Shown piece after piece: positions 176 through 21,770 of a stretch of 38,160 bases of DNA (its first letter is position 1; each line of letters opens with the position of its first letter). The stretch spans positions 1 to 38,160 of the forward strand of contig NZ_JAEPKU010000026.1 in the NCBI RefSeq assembly GCF_016652235.1. The letters run 5' to 3'. This stretch comes from Dysgonomonas sp. Marseille-P4677 (lineage in GTDB: Bacteria; Bacteroidota; Bacteroidia; Bacteroidales; Dysgonomonadaceae). The notes under the pieces are model-generated. The model searched no databases. It had not been told where the DNA came from and was given only the letters and a program-made list of their open reading frames with translations. The translations under genes and the position numbers were made by a program.

Positions 176-1858
176 TTAATCTTTAGGCAAGCATGCTTCT
201 GTAAACTGACCAATATGGAGATATTTATCATATAATACTTTATATTTCTCATGTTTCTTCATATCAGGCGTGTATTCGCAAATAAATCCTTGTCCCATTT
301 TTAGCTGTGCTTCCTCAATTGTATTGTATTTTCCAGCAATTACAGCAGCAAACATAGCTGCACCTAAAGCACAAGTTTGCTGCGATCTGGCAACCTTTAT
401 AGGTAAACCGATTACATCCGAAAGAATTTGCATAACAAAAGGTGATTTTTGAGAAATACCTCCAATTCCAATAACTTCTTTTATCTCGATTCCGGAATCT
501 AAAAAGCGGTCAATAATAGATTTGGACCCAAAAGCTGTAGCTTCTACCAAGGCTCTAAAAATAAGCGGAGCATTACTACCTAATGTCAGTCCTGTTATAG
601 ATCCCGTTAATAGCTGATTGGCATCAGGAGTACGTCTTCCGTTCATCCAATCGGTGGCGATAATTGTACTTTGCTCTATAGAAATCTTTACAGCGTCATC
701 TGACAATTGTGGTATAATAGTATCACTTACTTCTTCTATTAATTTTGCTTTTATATTCTCATCCAGTAGTTTACTATTCATAAGAATATTATGTAACGGC
801 CATTCCAGCAACCCACGAAACCATGCATACAAATCTCCAAAAGCTGACTGTCCGGCTTCAAGCCCAATGAATCCGGGAATAACCGAACCGTCTACTTGTC
901 CGCAAATACCAGGAATAAGCATATCCTCCATTTGGTCGTAAGGAACAGTCATTATATCGCAGGTAGATGTTCCCATGACGCGAACAAAAGATCCTGGTTT
1001 GATTCCGGCTCCTACGGCACCCATATGGCAGTCTATAGCGCCGATTCCAACCTCTACATCTGTTGTGAGTCCTAATCGTGCGGCCCATTCTGCAGTAAGT
1101 TTTCCGGCAGAAACATCAGATGTATAAGTCTTTTCGTATAAATGTGACCGAAATCCTTTCAGCAGTGGGGATAATTCGGTAAGAAACTCTTCGGATGGAA
1201 GCCCTCCCCATTTTTCATGCCACATTGCTTTATGCCCTCCGACACAGCGGCTTCTCATTACATTTTCGGGTTTTGTATTTCCTGTTAAAAGAGCCGGCAT
1301 CCAGTCTGTATGCTCTATCCATGAGTAAGCCTTTGAACGTATACTTTCGTCAACTCGAAGTACATGCAAGACTTTTGACCATACCCACTCAGCCGAATAA
1401 ATTCCACCTTCGTAGGCTGTAAAATCTATATCCCACTTTTTCGATAACTGATTTATCTCTATTGATTCGGAAATTGCCGTATGGTCTTTCCATAGAATAA
1501 ACATTGCATTCGGATTTTTTTTATATTCCTCTAACAAGGCCAAAGGTGTTCCGTCTTTGTCTACCAAAACAGGTGTACTAGCTGTCATATCGAACGATAT
1601 GCCGATTATCTCTTTTGAAATATCGTTTTCTACTTCCATTAACGAGTCTTTGATAGCCGCCTCAAGAGTATCGATATAATCCTGCGGGTGCTGTCTGTAT
1701 TGGTTTTCCTGCGGATTACAATACAGACCTTCTTTCCATTGGGGATAATATTGCACTGACGATGCTATTTCTTTTCCATCGTCCGTATCAATTATCACAG
1801 CCCGGCACGAGTCTGTTCCATAATCAACCCCAATTACATATTTTTTACTCATACTCAT
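176..1858 (-). CDS. araB: AraB-type ribulokinase (FGGY family), probable D-ribulose kinase
   Basis: This is an ATP-dependent cytoplasmic kinase of 560 residues; E. coli AraB has 566. Family marks are the N-terminal phosphate-binding GVDYGTDSCRA, the AraB-specific DWMPALLTG followed by GGHKAMWHEKWGGLP, GAIDCHMGAVGAG near residue 275, and the C-terminal GIGGISQKSPF and CALGAAMFAA typical of FGGY ATP-binding domains. E. coli AraB phosphorylates both D- and L-ribulose. Next to a FucI-type isomerase that makes D-ribulose from D-arabinose, the likely product is D-ribulose 5-phosphate. It is the last gene of the PUL, 47 bp after the DUF4185 gene, and probably shares its transcript. A second Met two codons downstream (1852) could also be the start. 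Family call is sure; substrate stereochemistry is inferred from neighbours. Confidence 0.9.
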   Translation of the reverse strand: MSMSKKYVIGVDYGTDSCRAVIIDTDDGKEIASSVQYYPQWKEGLYCNPQENQYRQHPQDYIDTLEAAIKDSLMEVENDISKEIIGISFDMTASTPVLVDKDGTPLALLEEYKKNPNAMFILWKDHTAISESIEINQLSKKWDIDFTAYEGGIYSAEWVWSKVLHVLRVDESIRSKAYSWIEHTDWMPALLTGNTKPENVMRSRCVGGHKAMWHEKWGGLPSEEFLTELSPLLKGFRSHLYEKTYTSDVSAGKLTAEWAARLGLTTDVEVGIGAIDCHMGAVGAGIKPGSFVRVMGTSTCDIMTVPYDQMEDMLIPGICGQVDGSVIPGFIGLEAGQSAFGDLYAWFRGLLEWPLHNILMNSKLLDENIKAKLIEEVSDTIIPQLSDDAVKISIEQSTIIATDWMNGRRTPDANQLLTGSITGLTLGSNAPLIFRALVEATAFGSKSIIDRFLDSGIEIKEVIGIGGISQKSPFVMQILSDVIGLPIKVARSQQTCALGAAMFAAVIAGKYNTIEEAQLKMGQGFICEYTPDMKKHEKYKVLYDKYLHIGQFTEACLPKD

Positions 1859-1905
1859 AATATTTATATCTTTTATTATTGATTATATTATTATCTGGCT
1901 CGATG

Positions 1906-3039: not shown

Positions 3040-3120
3040 GACTTTTATTTGTTATTATGTTCTTAATACCTAAGAACTAATCATATTTTTTATTAGAAAT
3101 ACATTACAAGGTTTTCACAA

Positions 3121-3152
3121 CAACATTAGAAATAGATATCATTTTCGTCAAG
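3121..3152 (-). promoter_or_regulatory. Candidate Bacteroidetes promoter for the DUF4185-ribulokinase pair
   Basis: On the minus strand, CTTG (3149-3152), a 20-nt spacer and TAATGTTG (3121-3128) match the Bacteroides -33 TTTG / -7 TAnnTTTG consensus with one mismatch in each box. The element is about 80 nt upstream of the DUF4185 start and downstream of a strong hairpin, consistent with a separate internal promoter. This is pattern-based only. Confidence 0.4.
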
Positions 3153-3313: not shown

Positions 3314-4240
3314 TTAGAAACTTAAAGGAAAATCCAGTTCATAGTTTTCAGGTATTATGATCATACTTGTAATGCCATAAAATTTAGCCCATTGGGTATT
3401 ATTAGGACCAGGCTGTAAGGTTATTTTTATTTTACCATCGCTGTCTGGTATAATATCCTTTATAGTAGCCACATTAGATTGATTATTAGATGTATATAAG
3501 AGAGCCTTTCCTTCATTCTGACCTTTAACTGCATATTCCGTTTGGGTAACATTATCGTCTGCAATTGTAGCATAAAAGACAAATGTATATTTTGTGTTTG
3601 CTTTCAGTTTAGACAAGATAAATCCAGCAGAAGCAATACTAATACCATCGTTAAAAAACATATCAAAAGCAACATTATCAGGGAATCCTAAAGTGTTGAT
3701 ATGCGAACTTCTGTCTAATGTCAGAAAGGATCCGTTTACTTCAATCGCATATTTCGATGTAAAGCCTTTTGCATCTACCAGACCTTGTAGCTTACTATTC
3801 ACAGAACTTAGCATGTTATTAAACGGTTTAGATGATTCTATCGTTCCAAAATCGATAAATATAGGATGCTCGAACTGAAAGGATTGATTGATTTTCAGTG
3901 TTGATGTATATTGCAATTTTCCGTTTTCGGATTCGACTTTCAAATAAGTTTTTCCAGGTTTTAGTCCGGTAATACTTACTGAATTATCACCATTTTCCAC
4001 AAGTTTTACCAATTCTTGGTTAGTAACACTCCATTTGTATTTTCCTGTAGCAGTTTCGTCACTATCATACAGAGGGGTTATAGTTATTGTATTTTCCTCG
4101 TCAGTTTCCATTATGATATCACGATTAGGAATTCTCACATAGGGTCTGACTTCACCTTTTTCATAACCGGCCTCTTCTGTACATGAACCAAGTACGAATG
4201 CAAATAATAGAGAATAGATAAAATACTTAGTTGATTTCAT
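3314..4240 (-). CDS. Surface-type lipoprotein with Ig-like domain, candidate glycan-binding protein
   Basis: A 308-residue lipoprotein: MKSTKYFIY signal followed by lipobox VLGSC with the lipidated Cys at 20. Residues about 35-118 look like a BIG-type Ig fold (ITITPLYD, YKWSVTNQELV, VSITGLKPGKTYLKV). Residues about 125-300 form a second all-beta unit starting FIDFGTIESSKPFNNM, with KLKANTKYTFVFYAT and ending AKFYGITSMIIIP, which resembles non-catalytic carbohydrate-binding or galactose-binding-like folds. No catalytic motif is recognised. Position inside the PUL and lipid anchoring fit a surface glycan-binding protein, although such genes usually follow susD directly and this one sits eight genes into the operon. 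The exact family is not known to me. Confidence 0.6.
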   Translation of the reverse strand: MKSTKYFIYSLLFAFVLGSCTEEAGYEKGEVRPYVRIPNRDIIMETDEENTITITPLYDSDETATGKYKWSVTNQELVKLVENGDNSVSITGLKPGKTYLKVESENGKLQYTSTLKINQSFQFEHPIFIDFGTIESSKPFNNMLSSVNSKLQGLVDAKGFTSKYAIEVNGSFLTLDRSSHINTLGFPDNVAFDMFFNDGISIASAGFILSKLKANTKYTFVFYATIADDNVTQTEYAVKGQNEGKALLYTSNNQSNVATIKDIIPDSDGKIKITLQPGPNNTQWAKFYGITSMIIIPENYELDFPLSF

Positions 4241-4341: not shown

Positions 4342-6117
4342 TTACTTATAGATTGGTCCATAAGCCTTACATGCTCTATAGTCCGACCCTTCGGCATCTG
4401 AACCAAATGCGGCCCAAGCGGATGGACGGAATATTTTATCTTCATCTACGTTGTGCATACACACAGGTATAGATAACATCGATGCCAACGATATCAAGTC
4501 AGCACCTATATGTCCATAGCTGATTGCTCCATGATTAGCTCCCCAGTTGTTCATCACCGAATATACGTCACGGAAATATCCTTTACCAGTTACACGGGGT
4601 ACGAAAAATGTTGATGGCCAAGTCTTGTCGGTACGTTGATCAATGATATCAAATGCCTTATCAGGGAAAGTTGCTGTCCAGCCTTCAGCTATTTGCAATA
4701 CCAGCCCCAAACCTTTTACAAGATTCAGTCGGCACATAGTTACCGGCATACCACCTTTGGTGAGAAATTTGGATGAATAGCCTCCTCCACGAAAATATTC
4801 ACGTGAAGATGGTCCCCATTGGGTGGCTTTGAGCATTTTGTCAACTTCCACATCTTTGACTTCCCAGAATGGTTTCATTGCAGGGTTGCCATCCTTTTCT
4901 TGCTGACCTGTTCCGTCCAGTGTACATGAGCCTGAATTGATAAGGTGTATGGCCCCGTCTTTCATAATGCCTTCCGGCTTCCAACCTGTCACACGCTCTA
5001 TGGACTGAGGGCTCCAGTAGGTACGCACATCTGCAAACATCTGAGCTGTATTAGTCAGGTATTTACCCAACAACATGGACATACCGTTCAGATGATCGTT
5101 TTCAGTGGCGAATGCAAATGGTTCGCGAACGCCATTCCAGTCAAACGATGAATTGAGTATTGCCTCAGAAAAATCTCCATTTGGCATAAAGTCAGTCCAT
5201 TGGCGTTGTCCTTGAAATCCGCCACAGATAGCATTATGTCCCATTGCTTCTTCACCCCAGCCTATTTTAGCCAGTTTCTCGTTTCCGATCATCAAGTCAC
5301 GGAAAATTAATGTCATTTTGACTACAAATTCCCAGTCTTTATCTTTTTGTTCACGGGTACTTACCAGATGTTGCGGATTATGATCAGGTAATTCGTTAGG
5401 CACACAATGTTTTTTAGTCCATGCTAATGCCTTTTCGTATTCTTCTTTATCATAAATATCTTGTTGCACACGGCGTATTATTTCCGAGCAATCAACGTAT
5501 TCGGTACGCATACCGAAGTATTCCTGAAGCATGTCGGCATTGACCATCGATCCGGCAATACCCATCGATACCGTACCTATAGCCAGATACGACTTACCGC
5601 GCATCATAGCAAGAGCTAATCCCGATTTGGCAAATCGAAGTAGTTTCTCTTGTACATCAGCAGGTATAGCGTTGTCTCCTATATCTTGTATATCACGTCC
5701 GTAGATTCCGAATGTAGGCAATCCTTTTTGGTTATGGGCAGCAAGAGCCGCTGCAAGATATACTGCTCCCGGACGTTGCGTTCCGTTAAAACCCCAAATC
5801 GCTTTCGGAATTAGCGGATTCATGTCAATTGTTTCTGAGCCATAGCACCAACATGGGGTAACGGATAGAGACAAGCCTACATTTTCCTTTTCAAATTTTT
5901 CGGCACAGTCTGCACTTTCTTTTACTCCTCCGATACAAGTATCGGCTATAACGCATTGAATAGGCGACCCATCAGGATATTTTAAATTATCACTGTAAAA
6001 CTTCGCTACATTTTTAGCCATATTCATCGTTGTTTCTTCCAGTGATTCACGGATACCTTTGCGGCGACCATCAATGATAGGTCGTATACCTATCTTGGGA
6101 TAATTTGTTTTACTCAT
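4342..6117 (-). CDS. fucI: L-fucose/D-arabinose isomerase (FucI family)
   Basis: A cytoplasmic Mn2+-dependent ketol isomerase of 591 residues, the same length as E. coli FucI. E. coli FucI uses E337, D361 and H528; the matching residues here are E339 ([16 protein letters not shown]), D363 ([10 protein letters not shown]) and H529 ([13 protein letters not shown]). The N-terminal [20 protein letters not shown] is typical. FucI acts on both L-fucose (to L-fuculose) and D-arabinose (to D-ribulose), which share configuration at C2-C4. The PUL has a ribulokinase but no fuculokinase, fuculose-1-phosphate aldolase or fucosidase, so D-arabinose is the more likely substrate. The gene is 18 bp after the large GH172 gene. 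It has no signal peptide, so it works on imported monosaccharide. Family certain, substrate inferred. Confidence 0.93.
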
Positions 6118-8097: not shown

Positions 8098-10191
8098 TTA
8101 TTCAAATATATCTGCACCGAATTTGTCTCTAATTCGGTTGTAGGCTTCGGCAGCAGCTCCATTTCCCCAATCATAGATTGTAAATTCGCCGATACCTATC
8201 CCGTCTTTACTCGTTTGACCTCCATGTCCATAGTTTTCCATAGTGAAACCATAATCTTTTTCGTTGAAAAAAGGCCATACTTTTTCCCATTGTTCTTTTG
8301 CAATCGGATTTTGAGGACAATACATCATTGAGAATGAAGCTCGAAGTGCAGCTAATCCCCGTTCTATATATTCTTCTTTTTTCAGGAGTTTGCCATATTC
8401 AATTATGGTTTCGGCAAAGAGGCTTTGACGTGAATCGTTCCATTCTCCATCGGCATTCATTACACCGAAACCACCTAATCCATTGACATATATATAAGGT
8501 GGTTGCCAAGCGCTTTGTGTCATCAAGAGTTCGTCGAGTGTACGTTGACCGAGAAACAGATATTTTTTATTCTTTGTCTGCTTATAACATTCTAACAGAG
8601 CCTCGGTAGTCCAGTATATTGAGAAATTGCACTGTTTATACATATTGTTTCGTTTTATCTTCTTTCCAACCCAATCTAAGTTGCCTAATCGGCTACAAGA
8701 CCAATAAGTTTCGAAGTCTTCCCAGCGTCCCTCATATATAATATCTTTACATATAGCATCCATAGCTTTGAGTGCTGCGATTCTGTATTTTCGATCTTTG
8801 GTTAACTCCCATAACTTTAGTAAGAAAGTTACGCTCATAGATGTTTCCGGTGAATCGTTTAAATGCTCCATCGGCTGAAGGGTTTCTATATCTAGCCAGC
8901 CAGGAAAAAAACCTCTGGTATCTTGTTTCGTTAATAATGCGTCCGCATATCTGCGAGCATAGTCGAGTAAACGCTGATCTTTTTCTAGTTCGTCATACCA
9001 GCGAAGCATCAATGTAGCAGTCCAGCTCATATCTAAAATATGAAAAGGAGCTTTGCGGGCATCCCATGTATAAGGATTGCGGTTAGAATTTCCCCAATAA
9101 TAAGTATTCCAACCTTTAGATCGATTGTAGGGTTTATTTTCTATTTCTATCGTTTCCATCTCTGTACCAATCAAACAATAAAAGAAACCTTCTTTAACCG
9201 GTGCTGCCAACGCCAACTCTTTGGTCAAATTAGCCTTTTCGAGCAAAGTATTATCACCTGTACGCCGAGCATAGCGGTATAATCCACTTGCCGAACGCAA
9301 GGAACTGAACCAAGCCTGATTCCATATAGAACGAAATTCCCGTTCATTGACAGGTTCCGTATAATTGGGACTTTGTGTTATATTGACTATAAAAACCGGA
9401 GCTCCAACTTTTTTGTCATCGATAACAAATTCTTGCCATACTGCATGTTTCCAAGTGTTGAATGCCCAATTATAGGTGTGTTTTATATATGGTTCCAAAT
9501 CGCCTTTGATAGGGTTACCATCTTCATAAAGTTTGTGTCCCCAGTTGGACCAATAAAAGTCCAGCGGTCTGCGAAATGGATTATCTAAATCAGATTTCTT
9601 ATTATAATTCATGAGGTAAAAGCCAAATTCGACTTTACCTTTGGGGTATGTAGCACCTGGTGCACGTTCATATATTACATGATCCGAAACGAAGCTTTCA
9701 CTCATACCTAAGGTTAATACGTTTTGAGGTGCATTCATATCCAAATACCATCTCGAAGGTGTCTCTCCTTGCATGATTGCTATATCCGGCATGACAACCA
9801 ACCCTTGTTTCACATTTTGAACAATCATAGCCGGTGCCCTGAAAACATGTTGGTCTATAATATTTTTTTCGTATGGGCTAATGTGTGGTGCCCAATGGAA
9901 TGTAGGAGTAAATGCAGGTGTAATTGTCAATTGCCAATCGTCTTGTTTTATTTCTTTTGGTAAGTTGAATATCAATTTTACATGTATTAGGTTATTCTCC
10001 ACAATCTTGATTTCTTGTGAAGGTTGAATTGTTCCTAACAGATCGAATTCAATATTGTGTATAATATGTTTAAATTCTTTTGGAAAACTGCTGATATCAA
10101 GATTTAACCGTTCGGTCGCATTAATCTTAGTCAGAGCTAATAAACTTAGCATATTTCCTAATAGTACTATGTAAATTATTCTTTTTCTCAT
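8098..10191 (-). CDS. Secreted large protein with six-hairpin glycosidase-like repeats, family unknown
   Basis: A 697-residue protein with an N-terminal signal peptide (MRKRIIYIVLLGNMLSLLAL, cleavage near 26). I cannot name a CAZy family. Residues about 30-250 look all-beta. From about 290 to 690 it shows repeated amphipathic helix pairs: IWNQAWFSSLRSASGLYRYA, MSWTATLMLRWYDELEKDQ, SMSVTFLLKLWELTKDRKY, IYWTTEALLECYKQTKNKKY and LFAETIIEYGKLLKKEEY. These are typical of (alpha/alpha)6 or (alpha/alpha)7 toroids, as in six-hairpin glycosidases and lyases. Aromatic, acidic patches such as GFFPGWLD, NDSPETSMS, GRWEDFETYWSC and TIYDWGNG could line an active cleft. Its place between the DUF6786-like and GH172 genes suggests a role in side-chain or backbone removal. 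It could be a new hydrolase family or a lyase-like protein; function unproven. Confidence 0.65.
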   Translation of the reverse strand: MRKRIIYIVLLGNMLSLLALTKINATERLNLDISSFPKEFKHIIHNIEFDLLGTIQPSQEIKIVENNLIHVKLIFNLPKEIKQDDWQLTITPAFTPTFHWAPHISPYEKNIIDQHVFRAPAMIVQNVKQGLVVMPDIAIMQGETPSRWYLDMNAPQNVLTLGMSESFVSDHVIYERAPGATYPKGKVEFGFYLMNYNKKSDLDNPFRRPLDFYWSNWGHKLYEDGNPIKGDLEPYIKHTYNWAFNTWKHAVWQEFVIDDKKVGAPVFIVNITQSPNYTEPVNEREFRSIWNQAWFSSLRSASGLYRYARRTGDNTLLEKANLTKELALAAPVKEGFFYCLIGTEMETIEIENKPYNRSKGWNTYYWGNSNRNPYTWDARKAPFHILDMSWTATLMLRWYDELEKDQRLLDYARRYADALLTKQDTRGFFPGWLDIETLQPMEHLNDSPETSMSVTFLLKLWELTKDRKYRIAALKAMDAICKDIIYEGRWEDFETYWSCSRLGNLDWVGKKIKRNNMYKQCNFSIYWTTEALLECYKQTKNKKYLFLGQRTLDELLMTQSAWQPPYIYVNGLGGFGVMNADGEWNDSRQSLFAETIIEYGKLLKKEEYIERGLAALRASFSMMYCPQNPIAKEQWEKVWPFFNEKDYGFTMENYGHGGQTSKDGIGIGEFTIYDWGNGAAAEAYNRIRDKFGADIFE

Positions 10192-11496: not shown

Positions 11497-14060
11497 AAAT
11501 TTATTTTTTTGATTTCTATTTTGCTTTCTGCTCCCGAAACTACACACTTTCGTATATCAATTTCACCAAATTTCACTTCGATGAAGGGTATTCCATTTCT
11601 TAAGCCAACATTGGCGAATCCGGTATTAGTAGATAGGAAAGATACAAAATCATTTTCAATACGAGGATTGAGATAGAGAGTTTTATCTACAGCGTCATAA
11701 CGAATTCCTGTCAATGCTTCTAATAACGCATAGCTTGACATCGCTCGGGCGTACCATGCTCCACATTCATATTCGTTAAACGGATTGCGAATTTTCCCGT
11801 TATACCTGTTGCGGCATGTACGAACAATTTCTAATCCTTTTTCAACTTCACCTTCAAATATTAAGTGTGACGCAACCTGATATTCTATACCTGTCCACAC
11901 TTCGTTACTATATACAAACGGTAATTGAAGTTTACCCCCTTTCGGCCATGTACAAAGCAATAAGCCTCCTTCGTTTCCTAAAGCGTAGGTTGGACGTTGC
12001 GGGTTGGCATGTTCTCGAAGATCTTGTTTCAGATTATATTTATAAATAGCTTTAAGATGGCTTGTAATCTTAGCGTTATCCACTATTTCGGACATACCGC
12101 AAACAAGCGACATCCAAGAGCCAAGAACACCGTCCGACAGACATCCTGTTCCATATTGGTATTTAGGACCTTCTTTCTCTAATATTTTTAAAGCTTCGGG
12201 TGAATATCCCGAATTAAAGGTCTGGACTTTTGTCGGATCAGAGGCATTCAGACCTTTCCAACGTATATTCTGAATGAAGTACTCTCCATCATAAAGTTTA
12301 GTTTCCATGTATTCTTTACTCTTTGCCAATAAGTTTTCGTACCTATTAACGTCTTCGTCCAGATGCTTTCCCATCAGGATTATAGCTTGTAAAGCCCCTG
12401 CATAAAAGCTTGTCATCATCCCATTAGCACCCCAGAATTCAATATCGTAAGTATTATGGTGAGGCTCTTCCAATGCCCCTACTTCGCGAGGATCCCAAAC
12501 GCGAATACAATAATCCATACTTGTTTTTACCAGTGGATATATTTCTTTTAGCCAGTTGTCATTTCCATAGATACGCCATTCGCGATATACTTTCATTATT
12601 CCGCCTAACTGTCCGTCAGCCGCTGAATGGAAATCGTGGATTAATGGTCTGATGGGCAAGTTGGAACGGAAGGCCTGATGTCCTTCTTTATTTTGGTCTA
12701 CATAGTATTCTGCTTCCCGCAATGAGCGCTCCATATCAGGGAAAAGATGAGGCACTGCCTGAGCATAATTCCAGACATGGGTACATGATCCATGACACGA
12801 TCCCCAATGATCTCCGCATCCTTCCCAGTTCCACATTCGTCCATCGTATTGGCGGAATACAGTTGGCGACTTCAATATGGTCAGGTTAGAGGTGATAGCT
12901 TCTATTACTTCAGGAGGAAGTGTACTATTATAGAACGTCTCTGAGAACAATTTTGATTTGGACTTCAGTACGTCATAGTTTTTTTCCCAGTATTCGGTTA
13001 CCTCATTTATATTTGTAAATCGGCTACTATACCATGGGCGATAGTTGCCTTCACCTTTATTATCATATGTATAGTTAAGCGGTGTGTTGGGCATATCAGT
13101 TTCAGTCTTTGGCTCACCGCCAAATCTTTGGTTCGAAAATGGCACATACCATGCCATATATAATCTCACAGTCTTAGATTCTCCAGGTTTCAGTTTCACC
13201 GGTACAAATAGAGATGCCCCTGTAGCACCTTCTAATCCTGGAGGATTATTTTCGATTGTACCACTAGCAGTATTGTTCCAGCAAATAGTCAATGGATCGA
13301 ACCATCCGCCACGAAACCAATTATGGTCTACTTTTGTTTCTGGGTTATCTGTAAATATGGCAAATTCACCCTGGTGGAAGGGCTCTGTTTCTGTTCCGGA
13401 CTGATAAAGTATAAAACCATTCTTATGCGATTTAATACATGATGTACCTTTTCCATGTACATACATAAAGTTACGGGTATTGTACGAAAATATTGCATCT
13501 ACGTCAACACTACTTGTATTTTTAAACTCATATTCGAATCCTCCGACAGGCAGGCTTGAATTATCTGCATCGGTTGGGACAAATGGATTCCATATATTTA
13601 TTTTCACCTCTACAGGCATTGTATTATCTTCCAGTTCTATTTCGGTAAAAGGGAAACGTGCCAAAAAAGTATTTTCTTTATATCGGGGTAGGCCCCATGT
13701 GCCGCTACCGCCCAAAGCGGAATTTGGCATCCCGAATTTTTTCCAGTCGGGTACTTGTCCTTCGAGGACTCTGGTTGCATTATCAATTCCTTTTATATGA
13801 AGTGCAGCAAACATTGTTGGTTCATGAAAAATTTCAGGTCTATGTCTTAACGACATATTGGATATTGCACCGCTTCCTTCAATACAAAACATGCCCGTAC
13901 CCATTCCTCCAATCGGAAAAGCAATCCGATTAGTATATTCTCCTGTATATTTTTGGTTATAATCATGGCTGACTACATTATCTGCATTTCTTTTGCTGCA
14001 CGAAGTGCCGATAAAACTTATCAACAATAGAAACAGAATGGTGAAATCTATTTTTTTCAT
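11493..14060 (-). CDS. GH116 / DUF608 family lipoprotein, probable exo-beta-D-arabinofuranosidase
   Basis: An 855-residue lipoprotein if started at MKKIDFTILF; the lipobox FIGTSC puts the Cys at 21. The longer frame (from 14114) adds 18 residues before the signal and is unlikely. The N-terminal beta domain begins RIAFPIGGMGTGMFCIEG, the standard GH116 opening. The (alpha/alpha)6 domain has MWNWEGCGDHWGSC then THVWNYAQAVPHLFPDMERS, with E413 as the likely nucleophile, and HNTYDIEFWGANGMMTSFYA, with D539 as the likely acid/base by comparison with GBA2 and Thermoanaerobacterium GH116. A Microbacterium GH116 enzyme was reported to act as an exo-beta-D-arabinofuranosidase, capping-residue removal that fits this PUL. 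Beta-glucosidase or beta-xylosidase activity is the alternative. It is the first gene after susD. Confidence 0.85.
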   Translation of the reverse strand: MKKIDFTILFLLLISFIGTSCSKRNADNVVSHDYNQKYTGEYTNRIAFPIGGMGTGMFCIEGSGAISNMSLRHRPEIFHEPTMFAALHIKGIDNATRVLEGQVPDWKKFGMPNSALGGSGTWGLPRYKENTFLARFPFTEIELEDNTMPVEVKINIWNPFVPTDADNSSLPVGGFEYEFKNTSSVDVDAIFSYNTRNFMYVHGKGTSCIKSHKNGFILYQSGTETEPFHQGEFAIFTDNPETKVDHNWFRGGWFDPLTICWNNTASGTIENNPPGLEGATGASLFVPVKLKPGESKTVRLYMAWYVPFSNQRFGGEPKTETDMPNTPLNYTYDNKGEGNYRPWYSSRFTNINEVTEYWEKNYDVLKSKSKLFSETFYNSTLPPEVIEAITSNLTILKSPTVFRQYDGRMWNWEGCGDHWGSCHGSCTHVWNYAQAVPHLFPDMERSLREAEYYVDQNKEGHQAFRSNLPIRPLIHDFHSAADGQLGGIMKVYREWRIYGNDNWLKEIYPLVKTSMDYCIRVWDPREVGALEEPHHNTYDIEFWGANGMMTSFYAGALQAIILMGKHLDEDVNRYENLLAKSKEYMETKLYDGEYFIQNIRWKGLNASDPTKVQTFNSGYSPEALKILEKEGPKYQYGTGCLSDGVLGSWMSLVCGMSEIVDNAKITSHLKAIYKYNLKQDLREHANPQRPTYALGNEGGLLLCTWPKGGKLQLPFVYSNEVWTGIEYQVASHLIFEGEVEKGLEIVRTCRNRYNGKIRNPFNEYECGAWYARAMSSYALLEALTGIRYDAVDKTLYLNPRIENDFVSFLSTNTGFANVGLRNGIPFIEVKFGEIDIRKCVVSGAESKIEIKKINL

Positions 14061-14146: not shown

Positions 14147-16009
14147 TTATTCATTTTTAGTCCAGCCCGGATTTTGTACCAAAACACGTTCTGTCTCATT
14201 AATTTCATCTTGAGGGATTGGAAACCAATAATGTTTCGTCTTATCAAATACACGTGGCTCACATACAACTCTTTCGTAAAAAGCATTATCTTGCAGATGT
14301 GTGCCGGCCATGATATTCATACAATGGATAGGGCGGTTCTCTGTGGTTTCAGCTATACCCCAACGGCGAACATCAAAGTACCGATGGTTTTCGAAGGCTA
14401 GCTCTATCTTACGTTCTCGTCTGATTGCCTCTCTCATCTGTGTCTGACTCAGACCTGTTGGCAAATTGGCTATACCAGCTCTGCTTCTGATTTTATTTAT
14501 GTACGTATATGCCTTAGTCGGCCCCTCGGCTTCGTTGATAGCTTCAGCATAGTTTAAATAGATTTCTGCCAATCGGAAAAGAACCCAGCAGCGTTGTTCA
14601 TAACCTCTTCCTGCAGCCGGATTTACGTTCGGATTAACAACTTTTGCTATCAGATAGCCTGTTTTACAATAGTCACTTCCTGCTCCTTTCCGACCATCTT
14701 TTCCTGTATACCAGAAGTCGCAGGTAGTGCCTTGCCATTTTTGTCCGGCAAAGTTGATTGAAGCATAAAAACGTGGTTCTCTATTTGCATACATGGATCG
14801 TACTCCGGCTGGAGTCCAGCCATTATCACCTTCGGCAGTTGTATATCCACTTTCTTTGTATCCTGAGGCATTGTTGATTATAGGTGTTTTTTCGTCCGAT
14901 TCATATCCCGTAATTGGTACCGTACCATTTGCCATATGATATGAGTCTACCATTTCCTGAGTAGGATTTAATATAGAGAACCCTCTCAGACTAAGTATAG
15001 TAGCACAGTTATCGAAATGGTCATATCTGTCTAGATTCCGCCAGAATATCCATTCATCATTGAATCTGTCCAATAAGATGTCACGATAGTTTTTTACGTA
15101 ATCGGGGAGCCTAGATTCATACAGTTTATGTGCAGGAGACGCACTTTCCAGTGCCGTAATACATTCCATTGCAGCAGTTGCAGCTTTACTCCATTTAGAA
15201 GGATCATTGCTAGTTGGGAATAGATTAACTCCATCTCTGTCTTTGAAATCTTTATAATAGTCGTGCCCATTATATATCGGTGATGCCGCATAAAGTAACA
15301 TCCTCGATTTCAGAGCTAAGGCTGCGCCTGCGGTAGCTCGCCCTAAGTTTCCATCAGTGTAACGGATTTTAGACAAACTTGCAGCACGGTCACAATCATC
15401 AATAACAAATTGAATGCAATTTTCTAAAGGACTACGCTTAATGGTTGCGTAATCAAGGTCTGTTGGAAGTACATAGTCTATAATAGGTACCGGTCCGTAC
15501 GTCCTTATCAACTGGAAGTAGGCTAATGCCCGTAAAAAGTACGCTTCACCCTTCCACTGATTGCGGCGTTCTTCCGTAAATAAGTCTGTCGACGCAGAAC
15601 TTCCAGCTGCGATCAATGGAGTATTATCTATGTTTGCTAAAAAGATATTGGCCTTGCGAATACCCATATAACATTCGTTCCATACCGGAGCTACGTTATA
15701 TGAGTTATCTGCATTCAAAGCACCACTGTTCAATAAATGAGAAACTGCTCCTCCATAGGCAATTTCCATTTCATCACATCCAGCTGTAAAAGGGTTTCGA
15801 GCCCATGTATCGCCTGTACCACACATGAAATTTATTTCAGCGGGTATATGCATGTATGTATTTGCTAAAAATTTTTCAGCTTTTTTATAGTCTTGAAATA
15901 CTTCTTCTACCGTTAAATCACCTTCAGGTAACTTGTCGAGATAGTCGTTACATGAGGCCAAAGCGACAATAAGAAGAATTGTTGTAAATTTTAATATTCT
16001 TGTTCTCAT
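14147..16009 (-). CDS. SusD/RagB-family outer-membrane lipoprotein
   Basis: This is the surface glycan-binding lid that works with the SusC channel. At 620 residues it is within the usual range. The signal has the lipobox VALASC (Cys 20), followed by NDYLDKLPEGDLTVEEVFQD, the standard start of mature SusD proteins. TPR-like helices are seen in EAYFLRALAYFQLIRTYGPVP and the RagB C-terminal part in LNYAEAINEAEG, INKIRSRAGIANLP and RERKIELAFENHRYFDVRRWG, ending FPIPQDEINETERVLVQNPGW. It starts 12 bp after susC and is surely co-transcribed. Substrate specificity cannot be read from sequence; neighbours suggest D-arabinan fragments. Confidence 0.95.
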   Translation of the reverse strand: MRTRILKFTTILLIVALASCNDYLDKLPEGDLTVEEVFQDYKKAEKFLANTYMHIPAEINFMCGTGDTWARNPFTAGCDEMEIAYGGAVSHLLNSGALNADNSYNVAPVWNECYMGIRKANIFLANIDNTPLIAAGSSASTDLFTEERRNQWKGEAYFLRALAYFQLIRTYGPVPIIDYVLPTDLDYATIKRSPLENCIQFVIDDCDRAASLSKIRYTDGNLGRATAGAALALKSRMLLYAASPIYNGHDYYKDFKDRDGVNLFPTSNDPSKWSKAATAAMECITALESASPAHKLYESRLPDYVKNYRDILLDRFNDEWIFWRNLDRYDHFDNCATILSLRGFSILNPTQEMVDSYHMANGTVPITGYESDEKTPIINNASGYKESGYTTAEGDNGWTPAGVRSMYANREPRFYASINFAGQKWQGTTCDFWYTGKDGRKGAGSDYCKTGYLIAKVVNPNVNPAAGRGYEQRCWVLFRLAEIYLNYAEAINEAEGPTKAYTYINKIRSRAGIANLPTGLSQTQMREAIRRERKIELAFENHRYFDVRRWGIAETTENRPIHCMNIMAGTHLQDNAFYERVVCEPRVFDKTKHYWFPIPQDEINETERVLVQNPGWTKNE

Positions 16010-16021: not shown

Positions 16022-19000
16022 TTAGAAGTTAACTTGTGCTCCGAAATTAATAGTACGTTGTAGGGGGTAGGTATCATTAATATTTTGTTCCGGATCAATT
16101 ATTTTCAGCTTATCAAACGTTAAGAGGTTCGAGCCGTTCAAGAATAACCTGATTCCTTCGATTTTCGTTTTATTCATCCATTGTTTAGGTAATGAATATC
16201 CTATTTCTGCATTCTGAAGTTTTACATAACTGGCATTTCGCATATAAAGAGTCGAATTCCGGTTGTTATGCTCGTTCTTTCCAGCTATAACTGTCGGGTA
16301 TTTTGCATTTGAATTATCAGCGCCCGGAACCCAGCGATTGTCATAATATTCTCTCAATACATTGTAATTCGGATATTCCAGCATAAACGGATACATTCCT
16401 TCTTGTGTAAGGAAGGTACTTCGATTGGCTATTCCTGAGAATTGAACAGAGGCATCAATATTTTTATAAGATACGGCAGCCCCGAAACCAAACATAATTT
16501 CCGGTATCTGCGGATTTCCTATATACACTCTATCCTTATCGTTGATTACTCCATCACCGTTAGTATCCTGATATTTTATATCTCCAGGTATTATTGTGGT
16601 TTGATACTCGGATTTTGCCCAATTATCAATTTCTTCCTGGTCCTTGAATAAGCCTAAAGCTACAAGTGCAAATGCTTGTTCGAGAGAAGTTCCTTTTGTG
16701 CGTTGATAAAATTCTTCCGGTTCGGCTTTGTCATCTTCTACAATTTTGTTACGAGCAAAAGTAAAGTTACCTCTCAAAGAGTATGTCAAACCATAGGCTG
16801 TAGTGTTTCTAAACTCGATTGAAGCATCAAATCCTTTATTATCGACAACTCCAACATTACCATAAGGTGTGCCATGAGGAACTAAACCTACATATGCAGG
16901 TATTTTTTGTCTTTTTAATAAGATATCCTCTCTACGTTCTTTGAATGCGTCAAACTGGAAATTGAACTTATCTAATATACCGATGTCAAAACCTGCATTG
17001 TATTTTGTTGCAGTTTCCCAAGTTAAGTTCAAGCCAAATTTCTTTTCTTCAATTCCACCCAGATAGCTTTGACCAGACCCATAATAATATCCTGTCGCAG
17101 AAGAATTTACTGCAGTTATATATAAGAATCTGTCGCCAATAACTTTATCGTTACCTACTTTACCTACCGATCCTCTGAACTTCAAGTGATTTATGACAGA
17201 TTTATTCCAGAAACTCTCATTAGATATAACCCAACCTAAAGATAGAGAAGGAAAAAATCCATATCTTTTTCCTTTAGGAAATTGTTCCGAACCGTTATAT
17301 CCAAAATTCACTTCCGCTAAGTATCGACTATCATAGTTGTATGAGAATCTTCCGGCTAGTCCCTGATGACGATAAGGTAAATTATCTAATGACGAACCTG
17401 CTGTCAGATTCTTATATTCACGCCTATTTACAAGCAACATAGCACCTACATCGTGCAATCCGAAACTACGACCATAATTGATGGCTGCTTCTCCATACAT
17501 GGAATAATTAGAATCCTGTATATCTACCTTATAACCCATAGTTCCTTGTTCCCGCCATGTTTCATAAATATAGTCACCATTAGTATCTTTACCGGTGACT
17601 TGTTTTACTCCAAAGTCAACTCTCCGAGCCACCTCATTCTTGTAATAATGATCGAATGAGAATTTTGCACCTATCGATAAGCCTTTTGTTATCAACTTGG
17701 ATAAATCCCAGCGAGCAGACAGATTTCCTTGGTTATTTCCGATATACATCTGCGTATATCCTGTTTGTGTAGCCAATCCATATGGATTTCCTAACAAATA
17801 TGCAGTTGCACCTCCTCCGGAAATCGATCCGTCCGGGTTTCTTACAGGATATATCAATGGTGATGTCTGGCGTATAGCTCGCCATATATCACCAGAACTG
17901 GTACCCTGATAACTTCTGTCCTGAATAGTTGTAGCTAACCCTAATTCCAGAGTTATTTCCTTAGTTATATTTACATCTATATTGGATCTCAGATTATATC
18001 GACGAAATTTTCCACCACGAGTTTTCCAATCATATGACTTATCTTCTCTATACAGACCATCTTTTCCTATGTATCCTAGATTTACATAATAGCGTACAAC
18101 TTCATCTCCTCCCGAAACATTCAGATTGTGAGTAGTTTGCCAAGTATCCTTTTTAAAGACTTCATCTATCCAGTTTACATTCGGGTGTAGATAAGGGTCA
18201 GATCCATCCTTGAATTTCTGAATATCATCTGTTGACCAAGGTAATGATGATAGTTGGGAGTTGAATGATGCTTCATTCATTAGTGTTGCAAACTCATATG
18301 CTTCTATGTATTTTGGGAACCTCATACCTGTAAGAACAGCATATTCTCCACGATAAGTTACTTTAGGCTTTCCTTTCACACCCTTTTTTGTGGTAATTAG
18401 AATAACTCCATTTGCACCTCTTACACCATAAACAGCTGTAGCGGAGGCATCTTTGAGAATTGTGAAACTTTCAATTTCCTGTGCATTTACCAGATTGATA
18501 TCGCGTTCTACACCGTCGACTAAAACAAGAGGAGCAGTAAAGCCCTGATCGGTATTGAGAGTAGCCATACCACGTATATAGAGGGCTGCTCCATCAAATC
18601 CAGGCTCACCGCTGGATTGACGTGTGATAATTCCGGGTAGCTGTCCCCCCAGCGCATTTGACAAAGATGCTGCCGGAACTGCCTGAAGTTGTTTTACTTC
18701 GGCATTGGTAACAGCACCAGTCACTGAAATTTTCTTTTGGGTACCATATCCTACTACTACCACATCGTCGAGTTGTAGAGTAGCTTCGCGCATTACCAGA
18801 TTGATCGTATTATCCTTTCCTACAGTAATTTCCTGTGTTTGGAAACCCAAATAGGTGAAAACTAAAACATCATTGCTTTTTGCCTTAATGGTAAACTTTC
18901 CATCAATGTCGGTCATTGAGCCTGTTGTAGTACCTTTAATAGCAACTGTTACGCCTATAAGAGGATCACTGTTTACATCTAGCACGACCCCTGAGATTGT

Positions 19001-19117
19001 TCTTTCTGAAGGGGTTTGTTCGGTTCTGGCAAGTAAGGGACTTATTTGTAAAAATAGCATTACAAACAAGAGACTTGCGGCATAATAAAGTCCTTTTTGA
19101 CATTTTTTCTTTTTCAT
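16022..19117 (-). CDS. SusC/RagA-family TonB-dependent outer-membrane transporter
   Basis: A 1031-residue TonB-dependent channel for oligosaccharide uptake. It has a signal peptide at about 1-31, then a carboxypeptidase-regulatory-like domain (ISGVVLDVNSDPLIGVTVAI to LVMREATLQ, about 40-112). The TonB-box region and SusC motif are DDVVVVGYGTQKK, the plug runs from about 120 to 245 (LPGIITRQSSGEPGFDGAALY, VLVDGVERDI, ILKDASATAVYGVRGANGV), and a 22-strand-type barrel ends in the typical aromatic terminus TINFGAQVNF. There is no N-terminal signalling domain, so it does not drive an anti-sigma switch. A palindrome and a promoter-like element lie in the 215-bp upstream gap, suggesting its own promoter under LacI control. 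Confidence 0.96.
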   Translation of the reverse strand: MKKKKCQKGLYYAASLLFVMLFLQISPLLARTEQTPSERTISGVVLDVNSDPLIGVTVAIKGTTTGSMTDIDGKFTIKAKSNDVLVFTYLGFQTQEITVGKDNTINLVMREATLQLDDVVVVGYGTQKKISVTGAVTNAEVKQLQAVPAASLSNALGGQLPGIITRQSSGEPGFDGAALYIRGMATLNTDQGFTAPLVLVDGVERDINLVNAQEIESFTILKDASATAVYGVRGANGVILITTKKGVKGKPKVTYRGEYAVLTGMRFPKYIEAYEFATLMNEASFNSQLSSLPWSTDDIQKFKDGSDPYLHPNVNWIDEVFKKDTWQTTHNLNVSGGDEVVRYYVNLGYIGKDGLYREDKSYDWKTRGGKFRRYNLRSNIDVNITKEITLELGLATTIQDRSYQGTSSGDIWRAIRQTSPLIYPVRNPDGSISGGGATAYLLGNPYGLATQTGYTQMYIGNNQGNLSARWDLSKLITKGLSIGAKFSFDHYYKNEVARRVDFGVKQVTGKDTNGDYIYETWREQGTMGYKVDIQDSNYSMYGEAAINYGRSFGLHDVGAMLLVNRREYKNLTAGSSLDNLPYRHQGLAGRFSYNYDSRYLAEVNFGYNGSEQFPKGKRYGFFPSLSLGWVISNESFWNKSVINHLKFRGSVGKVGNDKVIGDRFLYITAVNSSATGYYYGSGQSYLGGIEEKKFGLNLTWETATKYNAGFDIGILDKFNFQFDAFKERREDILLKRQKIPAYVGLVPHGTPYGNVGVVDNKGFDASIEFRNTTAYGLTYSLRGNFTFARNKIVEDDKAEPEEFYQRTKGTSLEQAFALVALGLFKDQEEIDNWAKSEYQTTIIPGDIKYQDTNGDGVINDKDRVYIGNPQIPEIMFGFGAAVSYKNIDASVQFSGIANRSTFLTQEGMYPFMLEYPNYNVLREYYDNRWVPGADNSNAKYPTVIAGKNEHNNRNSTLYMRNASYVKLQNAEIGYSLPKQWMNKTKIEGIRLFLNGSNLLTFDKLKIIDPEQNINDTYPLQRTINFGAQVNF

Positions 19118-19151
19118 AAAATTCGATTTAAGTCATTTCAAGGAATACTAA

Positions 19152-19163
19152 TTAAACGTTTAA
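19152..19163. promoter_or_regulatory. Candidate LacI-family operator upstream of susC
   Basis: TTAAACGTTTAA is a perfect 12-bp palindrome with a central CG, the common form of LacI/GalR operators (AAACGTTT core). It lies about 35-46 bp upstream of the susC start codon, downstream of the candidate promoter. The LacI-type gene in the same locus is the likely partner. Pattern evidence only. Confidence 0.45.
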
Positions 19164-19228
19164 CTTAGATAGTGTGATTTTTAAAGTAAAAAATATTGCG
19201 ATTTAGAAATTCTATTCTTACATGAGAA

Positions 19229-19260
19229 GAGAAATACGATACGGAAGATTTAAGGTCAAA
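19229..19260 (-). promoter_or_regulatory. Candidate promoter for susC
   Basis: On the minus strand, TTTG (19257-19260), a 20-nt spacer and TATTTCTC (19229-19236) partly match the Bacteroides consensus: the -33 box is perfect and the -7 box has TA plus two of four later bases. It would give a leader of about 100 nt containing the TTAAACGTTTAA palindrome. Confidence 0.35.
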
Positions 19261-19265
19261 TAGGA

Positions 19266-19288
19266 GGGAGTATAGGCCAAATACTCCC
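19266..19288 (-). terminator. Stem-loop between the short GH172 gene and susC
   Basis: GGGAGTAT (19266-19273) pairs with ATACTCCC (19281-19288) over 8 bp with a 7-nt loop, about 45 nt after the GH172 stop. No clear U-run follows on the minus strand. It may separate the transporter-GH172 transcript from the susC transcript. Confidence 0.45.
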
Positions 19289-19332
19289 CCTTATTCACAT
19301 TTCGCATATTTCTTTTCAGTAAAATAACTAAA

Positions 19333-20493
19333 TCAATTTACTTCCAAATCTTGCCATGTTGGCAATTTAGGGAACTGAGCATGTGGCTCGCTCTGATACC
19401 AATACACAACTGATGATATATCAGATTTTTGAGGCAAATAACGACCACCTACTCTCCAACCAAGATCTTGTATTGTGACTCTAAGATCTTTATCGAAGCG
19501 AACAGGATCGGCAATATGCCATCGATACATGCCAAAGCGTTGTTGTGAACGATAGGTTCCGTCGGGACGTATCACTTGATGTAATCCAGCGTAAGGAGTG
19601 CAGAATTCGGTGTATTTCCCATTTCTATCGAAATTATAGCTTCCACAAAAATAATCTTCAGCACCTGTTCCACATATTGTAGGGAATTTGGAATCTCCAT
19701 CCATGAAGAACTTAATTTCACCTTCACCCCACCATCCGTTGTTATGGACACCACAAGCCATATAGGTACCCACATAATGTCCTTTTCCTTTTATACCGTC
19801 GATCAAAGTATAATCGGACGTTTCATTATAATGTGTACGGCGGAATTGAGCATGGAAATAGGCAGCATCAGCAGGTACTTCTGTCAATGTATAATCAACC
19901 TGATAATATAAAACCATTGCATCCTGAGGATTTACATTTTCCATTGTTATACGACATTTTTTACGGAAAGGCATAGTCCAATAACAATTGAAGGCACTTC
20001 CGGGATTGACACATACTGCAAGTGAAGATAAAGGAGCATATTCACCCCATGCCATACCAAAGAAATCACCTACAGGGCATTCAACAGATGGCTCTTTTTC
20101 GTCATCCCAATAGAAACGAAGGATAGAGAAGCGCCAGTTTCCTGTGGGGGTCATCCAGATGTGTTGAATAGCTCCGGGGCCTTCTATTTCAGCCAAAGTA
20201 AAAGTTTCTCCCGGTGCGATATGTACATAAGGATTTACTTTCCATGTTTGTCCTAGATCGCGAGCTGCATGATGAGCATTGGCCACATTGCGTTTTTCAC
20301 CTTGCATATTTGGATCGGCCATTCCACCTTTCCCTTTTTCTCCAGTAAAGTTTTCGGGGCTGATAGAACGTGTTTTGGCGTCAGATAATCTGTATAGATT
20401 GCCCATATTAGAGTCGAGTCCGTTGTATTTGGCCTGACCAAATACAGTCAAAGAGAATAAAAAAGTAATAATAATAAGAATGTTTTTTTTCAT
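19333..20493 (-). CDS. Single-domain GH172 (DUF2961) protein, probable exo-D-arabinofuranosidase
   Basis: A 386-residue exported enzyme with a signal peptide (MKKNILIIITFLFSLTVFGQ). Family marks are NLYRLSDAKTRSISPENFTG, IEGPGAIQHIWMTP, WDDEKEPSVECPVGDFFG, WWGEGEIKFFMDGD and CGTGAEDYFCGSYNF. E257 and E279 fit the GH172 catalytic pair known from the Bifidobacterium difructose-dianhydride enzyme. The length is close to single-domain GH172 members, which include D-arabinofuranosidases; the paralogue at 6136-8073 is much longer. It probably removes terminal D-arabinofuranose in the periplasm. The gene is 38 bp downstream of the symporter gene and likely on the same transcript, upstream of a hairpin and of susC. 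Confidence 0.9.
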   Translation of the reverse strand: MKKNILIIITFLFSLTVFGQAKYNGLDSNMGNLYRLSDAKTRSISPENFTGEKGKGGMADPNMQGEKRNVANAHHAARDLGQTWKVNPYVHIAPGETFTLAEIEGPGAIQHIWMTPTGNWRFSILRFYWDDEKEPSVECPVGDFFGMAWGEYAPLSSLAVCVNPGSAFNCYWTMPFRKKCRITMENVNPQDAMVLYYQVDYTLTEVPADAAYFHAQFRRTHYNETSDYTLIDGIKGKGHYVGTYMACGVHNNGWWGEGEIKFFMDGDSKFPTICGTGAEDYFCGSYNFDRNGKYTEFCTPYAGLHQVIRPDGTYRSQQRFGMYRWHIADPVRFDKDLRVTIQDLGWRVGGRYLPQKSDISSVVYWYQSEPHAQFPKLPTWQDLEVN

Positions 20494-20531
20494 GATAAGA
20501 TATTATTTTATTTAGTTTGACACGAATTATA

Positions 20532-21770
20532 CTATCTTACTTTGTATCCTTTGAGTCCAAAAAATGATATGTATACAAAGCATATTAAAGGAATGATAAA
20601 TCCAATAGCCATATTTTCTTCTCCTACGGCACCCATCATTATAGCAGAAAAAGCTCCTCCCGCTACAGCCATAGTGAGGAATGAAGCTGCTTTTTTTGTT
20701 TGTGTGCCCATGCCTGCTAGTCCTAAAGCATATATAGTAGGGAACATGATAGACATGAAGAAGAAGCAGATACATAGAGCCACTAGCGATATAAAGCCTA
20801 TATTCATAACTACAAGCGCCATACAGATTGCACATGTAATAGCATATACTGCTAATAATTTGTTTGCTTCAAAGCGAGCCATCAAAAAGCTACCACTGAG
20901 ACGTCCGATCATAAACAAAAACATTCCACCAAAAGCAAGGTATCTGGATGCATCTACTTTTGATATAGAACTATCGAGCTCCATAACATAGTTTATAAAC
21001 AAGGCAAATATTCCTGTCTGTGCTATCATATACATTATTTGCGCAATGAATGCCAAAACAAAATGCTTATGCTTCCATATTGATTTTTGAGGTAGTATAT
21101 CGGCCGTTGGAGCAGAATCTGCAACATTTTCTGAAACTTCTTTTATATCGGGCAGCTTGACGAAGAAAAAAATTACTGTAATAACCAATACACATGATCC
21201 TATAAGAATATAAGGTTTGGTTAAAGCCGTGGCATCTCCGGCTTCTGCTCCTAATATCAAATGTCCTCCAATCAGAGGCCCTAATACCCAGCCTAAACCA
21301 TTTAGAGATTGAGATAAATTCAATCTTCGCGAAGCACTTTCCTTTGGTCCTAAAACCGTCGAATATGGATTTGCCGCTGTTTCTAAAACACATAAGCCAC
21401 ATGCAACAATAAACAATGCAACAAGGAAAGGTTCCGGAGAAGTTCCGTATGCTGCGGGAATAAAACTGAATGCGCCTATTGCATACACAATAAGTCCTAA
21501 TATAATACCTTTCTTATATCCATATTTTCGCATAAATATTCCTGCAGGAAAGGCTATGAGCCCATATGCTATATAGGTGGAAAATTGGACTAAACCTGAT
21601 TCGGCTTTACTCATGGTGAATGCTTCCTGAAAGTGTTTGTTGAGAACATCTAAAAGACCATGAGCAAATCCCCACATCAGAAATAATGAACTAATGAGGA
21701 TAAATGGGAATAGATAACTTCCGCCTTCGGGATTAAAAAAAATGCTACGTTTTTTTTCTTTATTCTTCAT
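20532..21770 (-). CDS. FucP-like sugar/H+ symporter (MFS), probable D-arabinose importer
   Basis: A 412-residue inner-membrane transporter with about 12 hydrophobic segments. It matches the FucP/GlcP branch of the MFS: FLMWGFAHGLLDVLNKHFQE near the N-terminus, AYGLIAFPAGIFMRKYGYKKG (loop 2-3) and VACGLCVLETAANPYSTVLG. D41 and E130 line up with D46 and E135, the substrate and proton residues of E. coli FucP, with the same 89-residue spacing. E. coli FucP carries L-fucose, L-galactose and D-arabinose. Here, with an isomerase and ribulokinase but no fucose aldolase, D-arabinose is the most likely cargo. It is 88 bp downstream of the LacI-type gene, with a promoter and operator candidate in the gap. 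Confidence 0.88.
   Translation of the reverse strand: MKNKEKKRSIFFNPEGGSYLFPFILISSLFLMWGFAHGLLDVLNKHFQEAFTMSKAESGLVQFSTYIAYGLIAFPAGIFMRKYGYKKGIILGLIVYAIGAFSFIPAAYGTSPEPFLVALFIVACGLCVLETAANPYSTVLGPKESASRRLNLSQSLNGLGWVLGPLIGGHLILGAEAGDATALTKPYILIGSCVLVITVIFFFVKLPDIKEVSENVADSAPTADILPQKSIWKHKHFVLAFIAQIMYMIAQTGIFALFINYVMELDSSISKVDASRYLAFGGMFLFMIGRLSGSFLMARFEANKLLAVYAITCAICMALVVMNIGFISLVALCICFFFMSIMFPTIYALGLAGMGTQTKKAASFLTMAVAGGAFSAIMMGAVGEENMAIGFIIPLICFVYISFFGLKGYKVR

Follow-up and report, generated by a model that had tools for sequence, protein, structure and literature searches.

The closest described relatives of the locus analyzed here are polysaccharide utilization locus (PUL) 42 of Dysgonomonas gadei (HMPREF9455_02467-02481; Al-Jourani 2023, PMC10115798) and a gene cluster of Microbacterium arabinogalactanolyticum (Shimokawa 2023, PMC10509167). 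We analyzed a stretch of 38,160 nucleotides from Dysgonomonas sp. Marseille-P4677 (contig NZ_JAEPKU010000026.1, positions 1 to 38,160, forward strand; the window in the following), and the minus-strand genes at 176-21770, judged from their sequences, very probably form a D-arabinan utilization locus, of the PUL42 kind, in a Dysgonomonas species. It is a new cluster of this published kind. D. gadei belongs to the same genus, and, as far as the published passages on PUL42 go, both loci have a set of glycoside hydrolases (GH) and an isomerase in common, namely GH172a, GH116, GH172b, FucI and GH183, whereas the locus in the window has a single GH183 where PUL42 has two, lacks GH172c and has another SusC/SusD pair. 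This single pair lies between GH172a and GH116, unlike in the PUL42 kind as seen in genome G304, a near relative of D. gadei, in which LacI, FucP and the kinase of the window are also found. The Microbacterium cluster likewise combines GH183, GH172 and GH116 with an isomerase and a kinase, and its enzymes are homologous to those of the window, with conserved active sites. In contrast, it is of a Gram-positive type with an ABC importer, intracellular exo-enzymes and four GH183 proteins, and the passages on it mention neither SusCD nor DUF6786 nor a protein of 697 amino acids (aa) that is encoded in the window. New here are the position of this 697-aa protein beside the long GH172 and DUF6786, and the recurrence of the palindrome TTAAACGTTTAA upstream of genes of such clusters.

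The open reading frames (ORFs) of the minus strand at 176-21770 were scanned with Pfam and NCBIfam. The families claimed in a first-pass annotation of the sequence, i.e., GH183, two GH172, GH116 and SusC/SusD, are all present on this one stretch; LacI, AraC, DUF6786, the small fn3-like lipoprotein and the 697-aa protein, which lacks a family, were added by the present analysis. The locus is a PUL, with an adjacent susC-susD pair, glycoside hydrolases and a regulator. In the direction of transcription the order is FucP-type symporter, 386-aa GH172, SusC, SusD, GH116, DUF6786, 697-aa protein, 645-aa GH172, FucI, small lipoprotein, GH183 and ribulokinase, and the LacI and AraC-type regulators lie upstream on the same strand, up to 23907. 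By position, the features are:

176..1858, minus strand: ribulokinase (AraB family), second copy in the genome; NF003154, 702.7 bits
1906..3039, minus strand: GH183 (DUF4185), putative endo-alpha-D-arabinanase, exported by eye; PF13810, 9.4e-93; PDB 8hhv, 1.4e-46
3314..4240, minus strand: small lipoprotein (by eye) with a weak fn3 match, E 0.00095, under the cut-off
4342..6117, minus strand: FucI; TIGR01089, 1027 bits
6136..8073, minus strand: GH172 of the long kind, DgGH172b type with 1.5 DUF2961 domains; PF11175, 1.3e-55 in two stretches; PDB 8ah3, 1.5e-23
8098..10191, minus strand: 697-aa protein, exported by eye, without a family model; a beta-domain and an alpha/alpha helical domain are predicted
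10246..11496, minus strand: DUF6786 lipoprotein (by eye) with an aldose 1-epimerase-like fold; PF20583, 1.7e-157
11493..14060, minus strand: GH116, putative exo-beta-D-arabinofuranosidase, lipoprotein by eye, listed ORF up to 14114; PF04685, 4e-56; PDB 8ic6, 8e-114
14147..16009, minus strand: SusD-like lipoprotein; PF07980, 1.9e-61
16022..19117, minus strand: SusC-like TonB-dependent transporter; TIGR04056, 1014 bits
19152..19163, no strand: TTAAACGTTTAA, a perfect palindrome and candidate LacI operator 34 bp upstream of the ATG of susC
19333..20493, minus strand: GH172 of 386 aa, putative exo-alpha-D-arabinofuranosidase of the DgGH172a/ExoMA1 type; PF11175, 1.6e-97; PDB 8ic8, 1.8e-119
20532..21770, minus strand: FucP-type sugar:H+ symporter (FucP-like major facilitator superfamily protein); TIGR00885, 305 bits, over the cut-off
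21859..22929, minus strand: LacI-family regulator; PF00356, 6.9e-15
23074..23907, minus strand: AraC-type regulator, possible member of the locus; PF12833, 2.2e-14

The ORFs listed for GH116 and DUF6786 share positions 11493-11547; if DUF6786 starts at an ATG at 11496 (translation checked), the overlap is only 4 bp. The contig starts only 175 bp past the kinase gene, so that a further gene of the locus might lie beyond it. The genome itself (G000; 4.73 Mb, 278 contigs, 99.95% complete) contains a single GH183, and DUF4185 and DUF2961 had no match in any of 14 control genomes; therefore, the family matches are not due to chance. Among 25 genomes of the same genus, four carry GH183.

The best solved relatives of GH183, the 386-aa GH172 and GH116 are EndoMA1, ExoMA1 and ExoMA2 of M. 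arabinogalactanolyticum, respectively. For the 386-aa GH172, alphaFFase1 follows (1.4e-41) after the exo-alpha-D-arabinofuranosidase 8ic8, and for GH116 a glucosylceramidase follows (6.6e-8) after the exo-beta-D-arabinofuranosidase 8ic6, while the match of GH183 is the endo-D-arabinanase 8hhv. Residues named in the passages of PMC10509167 were transferred through alignments to solved structures. GH183, a DUF4185 protein with the catalytic Asp/Asp and Glu in place, is identical to EndoMA1 at seven of the eight positions checked (D74, D92, E285, R237, W182, L336 and Y337, corresponding to D33, D51, E243, R198, W138, L292 and Y293), and Pro141 stands opposite a gap. GH116 keeps all four ExoMA2 residues checked, i.e., the nucleophile Glu431, the acid/base Asp557, His446 and Arg483. 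The 386-aa GH172, a DUF2961 protein, keeps the Glu pair of the family motif (E257 and E279), the catalytic role of which has been derived from DgGH172c mutants in the part of PMC10115798 that treats them, and has N287 at the position of Asn253 in ExoMA1 and Gly299 in alphaFFase1. The specificity of ExoMA1 for D-arabinose reportedly depends on Asn253, a residue that is also reported to block fructofuranose (PMC10509167, passage on this residue). The 645-aa GH172 gives two DUF2961 matches, like DgGH172b with its 1.5 domains, and is thus of the long type; its E403 and E422 align with E233 and E254 of DgGH172c, and by eye it has Tyr at the Asn253 position. The first-pass view of GH183, GH172 and GH116 as D-arabinan families is supported by these relatives and residues. 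The genome contains a third GH172 gene (G000:C204:2416-3273, L170), which is on another contig, is 31% identical to the 386-aa GH172 and lies at a distance of about 9-14 kb from a SusC/SusD pair that differs from that of the PUL.

FucI is the sole copy in the genome. The only AraA is encoded on contig C212, where an aldolase-II gene and a kinase gene flank it in an araD-araA-araB set; the kinase of this set is 64% identical to the ribulokinase of the PUL. An isomerase and a kinase are thus present apart from the L-arabinose genes. Proteins of the FucI and FucP kinds can use D-arabinose, as kinases of the AraB type can use D-ribulose. With a single FucI and a separate araD-araA-araB set, the simplest reading of the sequences is that FucI and the PUL ribulokinase would convert D-arabinose via D-ribulose to D-ribulose-5-phosphate; the FucP-type symporter would be the D-arabinose importer, FucI the D-arabinose isomerase and the AraB-family kinase a D-ribulokinase. 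The genes fit D-arabinose better than L-arabinose, in line with the catabolism proposed at first pass. D-ribulose-5-phosphate is also the end product drawn for Microbacterium in the relevant passage of PMC10509167.

The locus might work as follows. The exported GH183 would cut alpha-D-arabinan into oligosaccharides, which would be bound and imported by the small lipoprotein at 3314-4240, a probable surface glycan-binding protein, together with SusD and SusC. GH116 would remove terminal beta-D-arabinofuranose (beta-D-Araf), both GH172 enzymes would remove alpha-D-Araf, and DUF6786 might speed up the mutarotation of the released sugar. D-arabinose would then be taken in by FucP, isomerized to D-ribulose by FucI and phosphorylated by the AraB-type kinase to D-ribulose-5-phosphate, which would enter the pentose phosphate pathway, so that no aldolase would be needed. 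LacI, with TTAAACGTTTAA as its operator, would repress the genes until D-arabinose or an oligosaccharide is present, and the 697-aa protein would probably be an additional enzyme of the set.

Solved relatives, conserved active sites, a gene content like that of D. gadei and the catabolic genes largely support the D-arabinan PUL of the first-pass annotation. However, several observations weigh against it. A search with the 386-aa GH172 yielded at least 591 stretches, and among the best 80 loci (36 of them at least 21 kb long, the rest shorter) a labelled GH183 occurs in two, GH116 in 17 and FucI in 10. In 43 of the best 80, the stretch contains no labelled GH183, GH116, FucI, long GH172, DUF6786 or 697-aa protein; therefore, the 386-aa GH172 alone is no proof of D-arabinan, and this type of enzyme may also serve elsewhere. 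In addition, SusC, SusD and the small lipoprotein are at most 39%, 34% and 49% identical to the G304 copies, and the assignments of export and lipoproteins were made by eye. Solitary homologues of the 386-aa GH172 (L007-L086) have identities of 70-88%, among the matches listed.

Other substrates fit less well than D-arabinan. It is highly improbable that the locus uses its GH172 enzymes on alpha-D-fructan or difructose anhydride: alphaFFase1 is indeed a GH172 with a score of 1.4e-41 to the 386-aa protein, but ExoMA1 is far closer (1.8e-119), the Asn that is reported to block fructofuranose is kept (N287), and GH183, GH116 and FucI would have no evident role. It is the specificity residue and the far better ExoMA1 score that disfavor a fructan locus. 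The chance of an L-fucose or L-arabinan locus is just as slim. FucI, FucP and the ribulokinase bear gene names of L-sugars, and, because a second class-II aldolase gene is present on contig C214, an L-fucose route retains a trace of plausibility; yet none of the scanned locus proteins matched a fucosidase, L-arabinanase or fuculose aldolase family, and the genome has its araD-araA-araB set elsewhere. A source of the D-Araf chains other than mycobacterial arabinogalactan (AG) or lipoarabinomannan (LAM) deserves more weight, though it seems rather unlikely. Gram-negative lipopolysaccharide (LPS), pili, exopolysaccharide or shed corynebacterial wall could be the natural source, and the enzymes would still cut D-Araf chains. 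The D. gadei authors, in a passage of PMC10115798, name LPS and Pseudomonas pili as other sources of D-arabinofuranose, no galactofuranosidase is among the Pfam and NCBIfam matches of the locus, and GH172 homologues with 70-88% identity occur in many records of Bacteroidota including Chitinophaga, among the matches listed. On the other hand, the residues of an exo-beta-D-Araf enzyme are conserved in GH116, and a passage of PMC10509167 describes the D-arabinan of LAM as having terminal beta-D-Araf; moreover, according to the published passages, most GH183 enzymes tested showed higher activity on AG than on LAM, and pilin oligosaccharides were cut by only a subset of them. Because a galactofuranosidase is missing from the locus family matches and other D-Araf sources have been named, we can only infer that the organism feeds on mycobacteria or other actinobacteria, as had been suggested at first pass.

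The gene order of D. gadei beyond the printed tags was derived from G304, which belongs to the same genus and is regarded as a near relative of D. gadei because its GH172c and PDB 8ah3 (DG02479) share 97.8% identity over 270 residues. In G304 the order is LacI, FucP, GH172a, GH116, DUF6786, 697-aa protein, GH172b, FucI, SusC, two unlabelled ORFs (one of merely 138 aa), SusC, SusD, lipoprotein, GH172c, GH183, GH183 and kinase, the first SusC being split by the border of two stretches. Counting these genes would put GH172a, GH116, GH172b, GH172c and both GH183 at 02467, 02468, 02471, 02479, 02480 and 02481, for which the tags are printed in passages of PMC10115798 and PMC10509167; DUF6786 would then correspond to 02469 and the 697-aa protein to 02470. 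The HMPREF9455 tags named in the literature passages are 02467, 02468, 02471, 02479, 02480, 02481, 00941 and 02360; neither 02469 and 02470 nor the name DUF6786 was found in the passages searched, with supplements outside the search. The likeness to the D. gadei PUL, which the first-pass annotation had put up for comparison, thus extends to the enzyme set and to the fit of the G304 order with the tags, whereas SusC/SusD, the number of GH183 genes and GH172c differ.

Between the window and G304, the regulator, importer, enzymes, isomerase and kinase are 66-88% identical (77% for the 645-aa GH172), and the identity to the second GH183 is 60%. The metagenome-assembled locus L040 (Dysgonamonadaceae bacterium) has SusC (77%), SusD (70%) and lipoprotein (62%) of the window type together with GH116 and GH172, and no labelled 697-aa protein. 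The congener G301 has a locus that lacks both GH116 and the 697-aa protein; the gene for the latter is on another contig. Comparison of these loci at the sequence level indicates a fairly stable core of enzymes and an importer that can be exchanged. The system of D. gadei is no singleton, and its enzyme set can pair with a different outer-membrane importer.

The 697-aa protein has no accepted match in Pfam, NCBIfam, PHROGs or PDB sequences, and its family profile reached a best E of only 0.023 against solved structures. An assignment to GH127 was rejected, as PF07944 scored 15.2 bits versus a cut-off of 24.9 and covered only residues 506-558. Six of nine homologues have weak GH127 matches in Pfam (best 7.8e-4), and other weak names among them include C5-epimerase, GH47, GH88 and more; E491, D492, E494, E583, D586 and E652 are among the invariant columns of their alignment. 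The AlphaFold model, based on 9 sequences (mean predicted local distance difference test score, pLDDT, 75.2; predicted template modeling score 0.81; several loops below 50), shows a beta-domain and, after it, an alpha/alpha helical domain, a combination also seen in alpha/alpha-barrel enzymes such as GH127, GH76 and PL27. The top Foldseek match is the lyase 5no8 (BACCELL_00875, named as PL27), and next come GH94, GH63, GH76, GH52 and GH116 proteins and sugar 2-epimerases. Because the template modeling (TM) scores in the rows shown are 0.16-0.37 by query, and the highest by target is 0.61 (GH76), the structure matches support the predicted fold class alone.

The genomic context says more about the 697-aa protein. 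It occurs in 30 of 101 genomes of the family and in three of 295 genomes of the order, the genome of the window being counted in both; among the three is a relative with 28% identity. Its neighbors were compared in 30 loci from 29 other family genomes, some stretches of which stop at contig ends. A long GH172 and/or DUF6786 lies within 200 bp of the gene in 28 loci. The exceptions are G318:C5, a shortened copy close to a contig end, and G301:C5, where the stretch covered has no labelled gene within 12 kb; a frame with weak similarity to GH172 (32%) lies there roughly 10 kb off, just beyond this stretch. Within 12 kb, DUF6786 and FucP are found in 26 loci each, the long GH172 in 24, the short GH172 in 23, the kinase in 20, GH116 in 11, GH183 in nine and FucI in six. 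With GH116 in 11 of 30 loci, the idea that the 697-aa protein replaces GH116 is unsupported. A short GH172 (at least 70% identity) is present in 26 of the 30 genomes with the 697-aa protein versus 15 of the 71 others, among the matches listed (Fisher p 8e-10, relatedness ignored), and the 697-aa protein is labelled in seven of the best 80 GH172-centered loci.

Probably, the 697-aa protein is a further enzyme of the D-arabinan set. Tentatively, and with somewhat less confidence than doubt, we propose that it founds a family of carbohydrate-active enzymes outside the libraries used here that is dedicated to D-arabinan, e.g., to a terminal beta-linkage, a branch point or a cap. If this is true, the new family, a DUF6786 mutarotase and the LacI/TTAAACGTTTAA regulon would complete the D-arabinan system of Bacteroidota. 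The genes for the 697-aa protein and DUF6786 are kept beside known enzymes, and no tested function was found for them in the literature searched. Enzymes that cleave D-arabinan are tools for the analysis of mycobacterial walls, and therefore an unrecognized one is a concrete target. Distant homologues (21-28%) at L077 3321-5633 and in L190, near relatives of GH116, GH172 or DUF6786, hint that the family may be wider.

DUF6786 was modeled with a pLDDT of 89.3, and its best structural matches are aldose 1-epimerase-like proteins, with 3nre at the top (E 9.7e-12; TM 0.45 by query, 0.61 by target). The model has the galactose-mutarotase fold and makes DUF6786 a plausible candidate mutarotase for released D-arabinose. 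However, the match is to a mutarotase-like fold in general, which is common to non-epimerases as well.

The palindrome TTAAACGTTTAA has a single exact copy in the window, before susC; a copy with one mismatch lies at 33512, and at least two such matches were obtained in 4 of 100 shuffles. Twelve exact copies were found in other loci (those of L074 and L187 apparently being the same place), all of them 15-129 bp upstream of a LacI, FucI, GH172 or GH183 gene. Across 118 loci and the window together (2.03 Mb, with some overlap) it is the commonest of the 32 palindromes of the form (A/T)5-CG-(A/T)5, with 13 exact copies versus a mean of 0.97 over all 32, itself included. Of 357 genes, 29 have it upstream with at most one mismatch, and 13 of these are among the 26 LacI genes, while the other 31 palindromes are upstream of a mean of 1.9 genes (runner-up 19). 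Counterparts of LacI are encoded beside the G304 cluster (66%) and beside a GH172 gene in L007 (64%). From its sequence distribution, TTAAACGTTTAA is a candidate LacI operator, and it can be used to trace the regulon by sequence in other Bacteroidota. Such a role is less well in accord with the absence of exact copies from 179 of 191 loci, with the presence of only a one-mismatch copy in G304, before FucP, and with the genome of the window itself, in which a 14-bp form of the palindrome (at most one mismatch) is not enriched (two versus four for the reversed control).

The rest of the window contains other genes. On the plus strand, 24191-32118 encodes a SWIM zinc finger protein, HEAT repeats, a MoxR-type AAA protein, DUF5682 and a VWA/CoxE protein, and PADLOC gave one marginal match for these five proteins (mad8, E 0.00035). 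A fimbrillin-like gene (Mfa_like_1) on the minus strand at 32207-33114 consists of two ORFs that cover successive parts of the profile, and is possibly broken. Thiamine synthesis genes follow on the minus strand at 33512-38057 (ThiF, a radical SAM/BATS protein, ThiG and two thiamine monophosphate synthase-like proteins), and they are preceded by a thiamine pyrophosphate riboswitch at 37966-38057.

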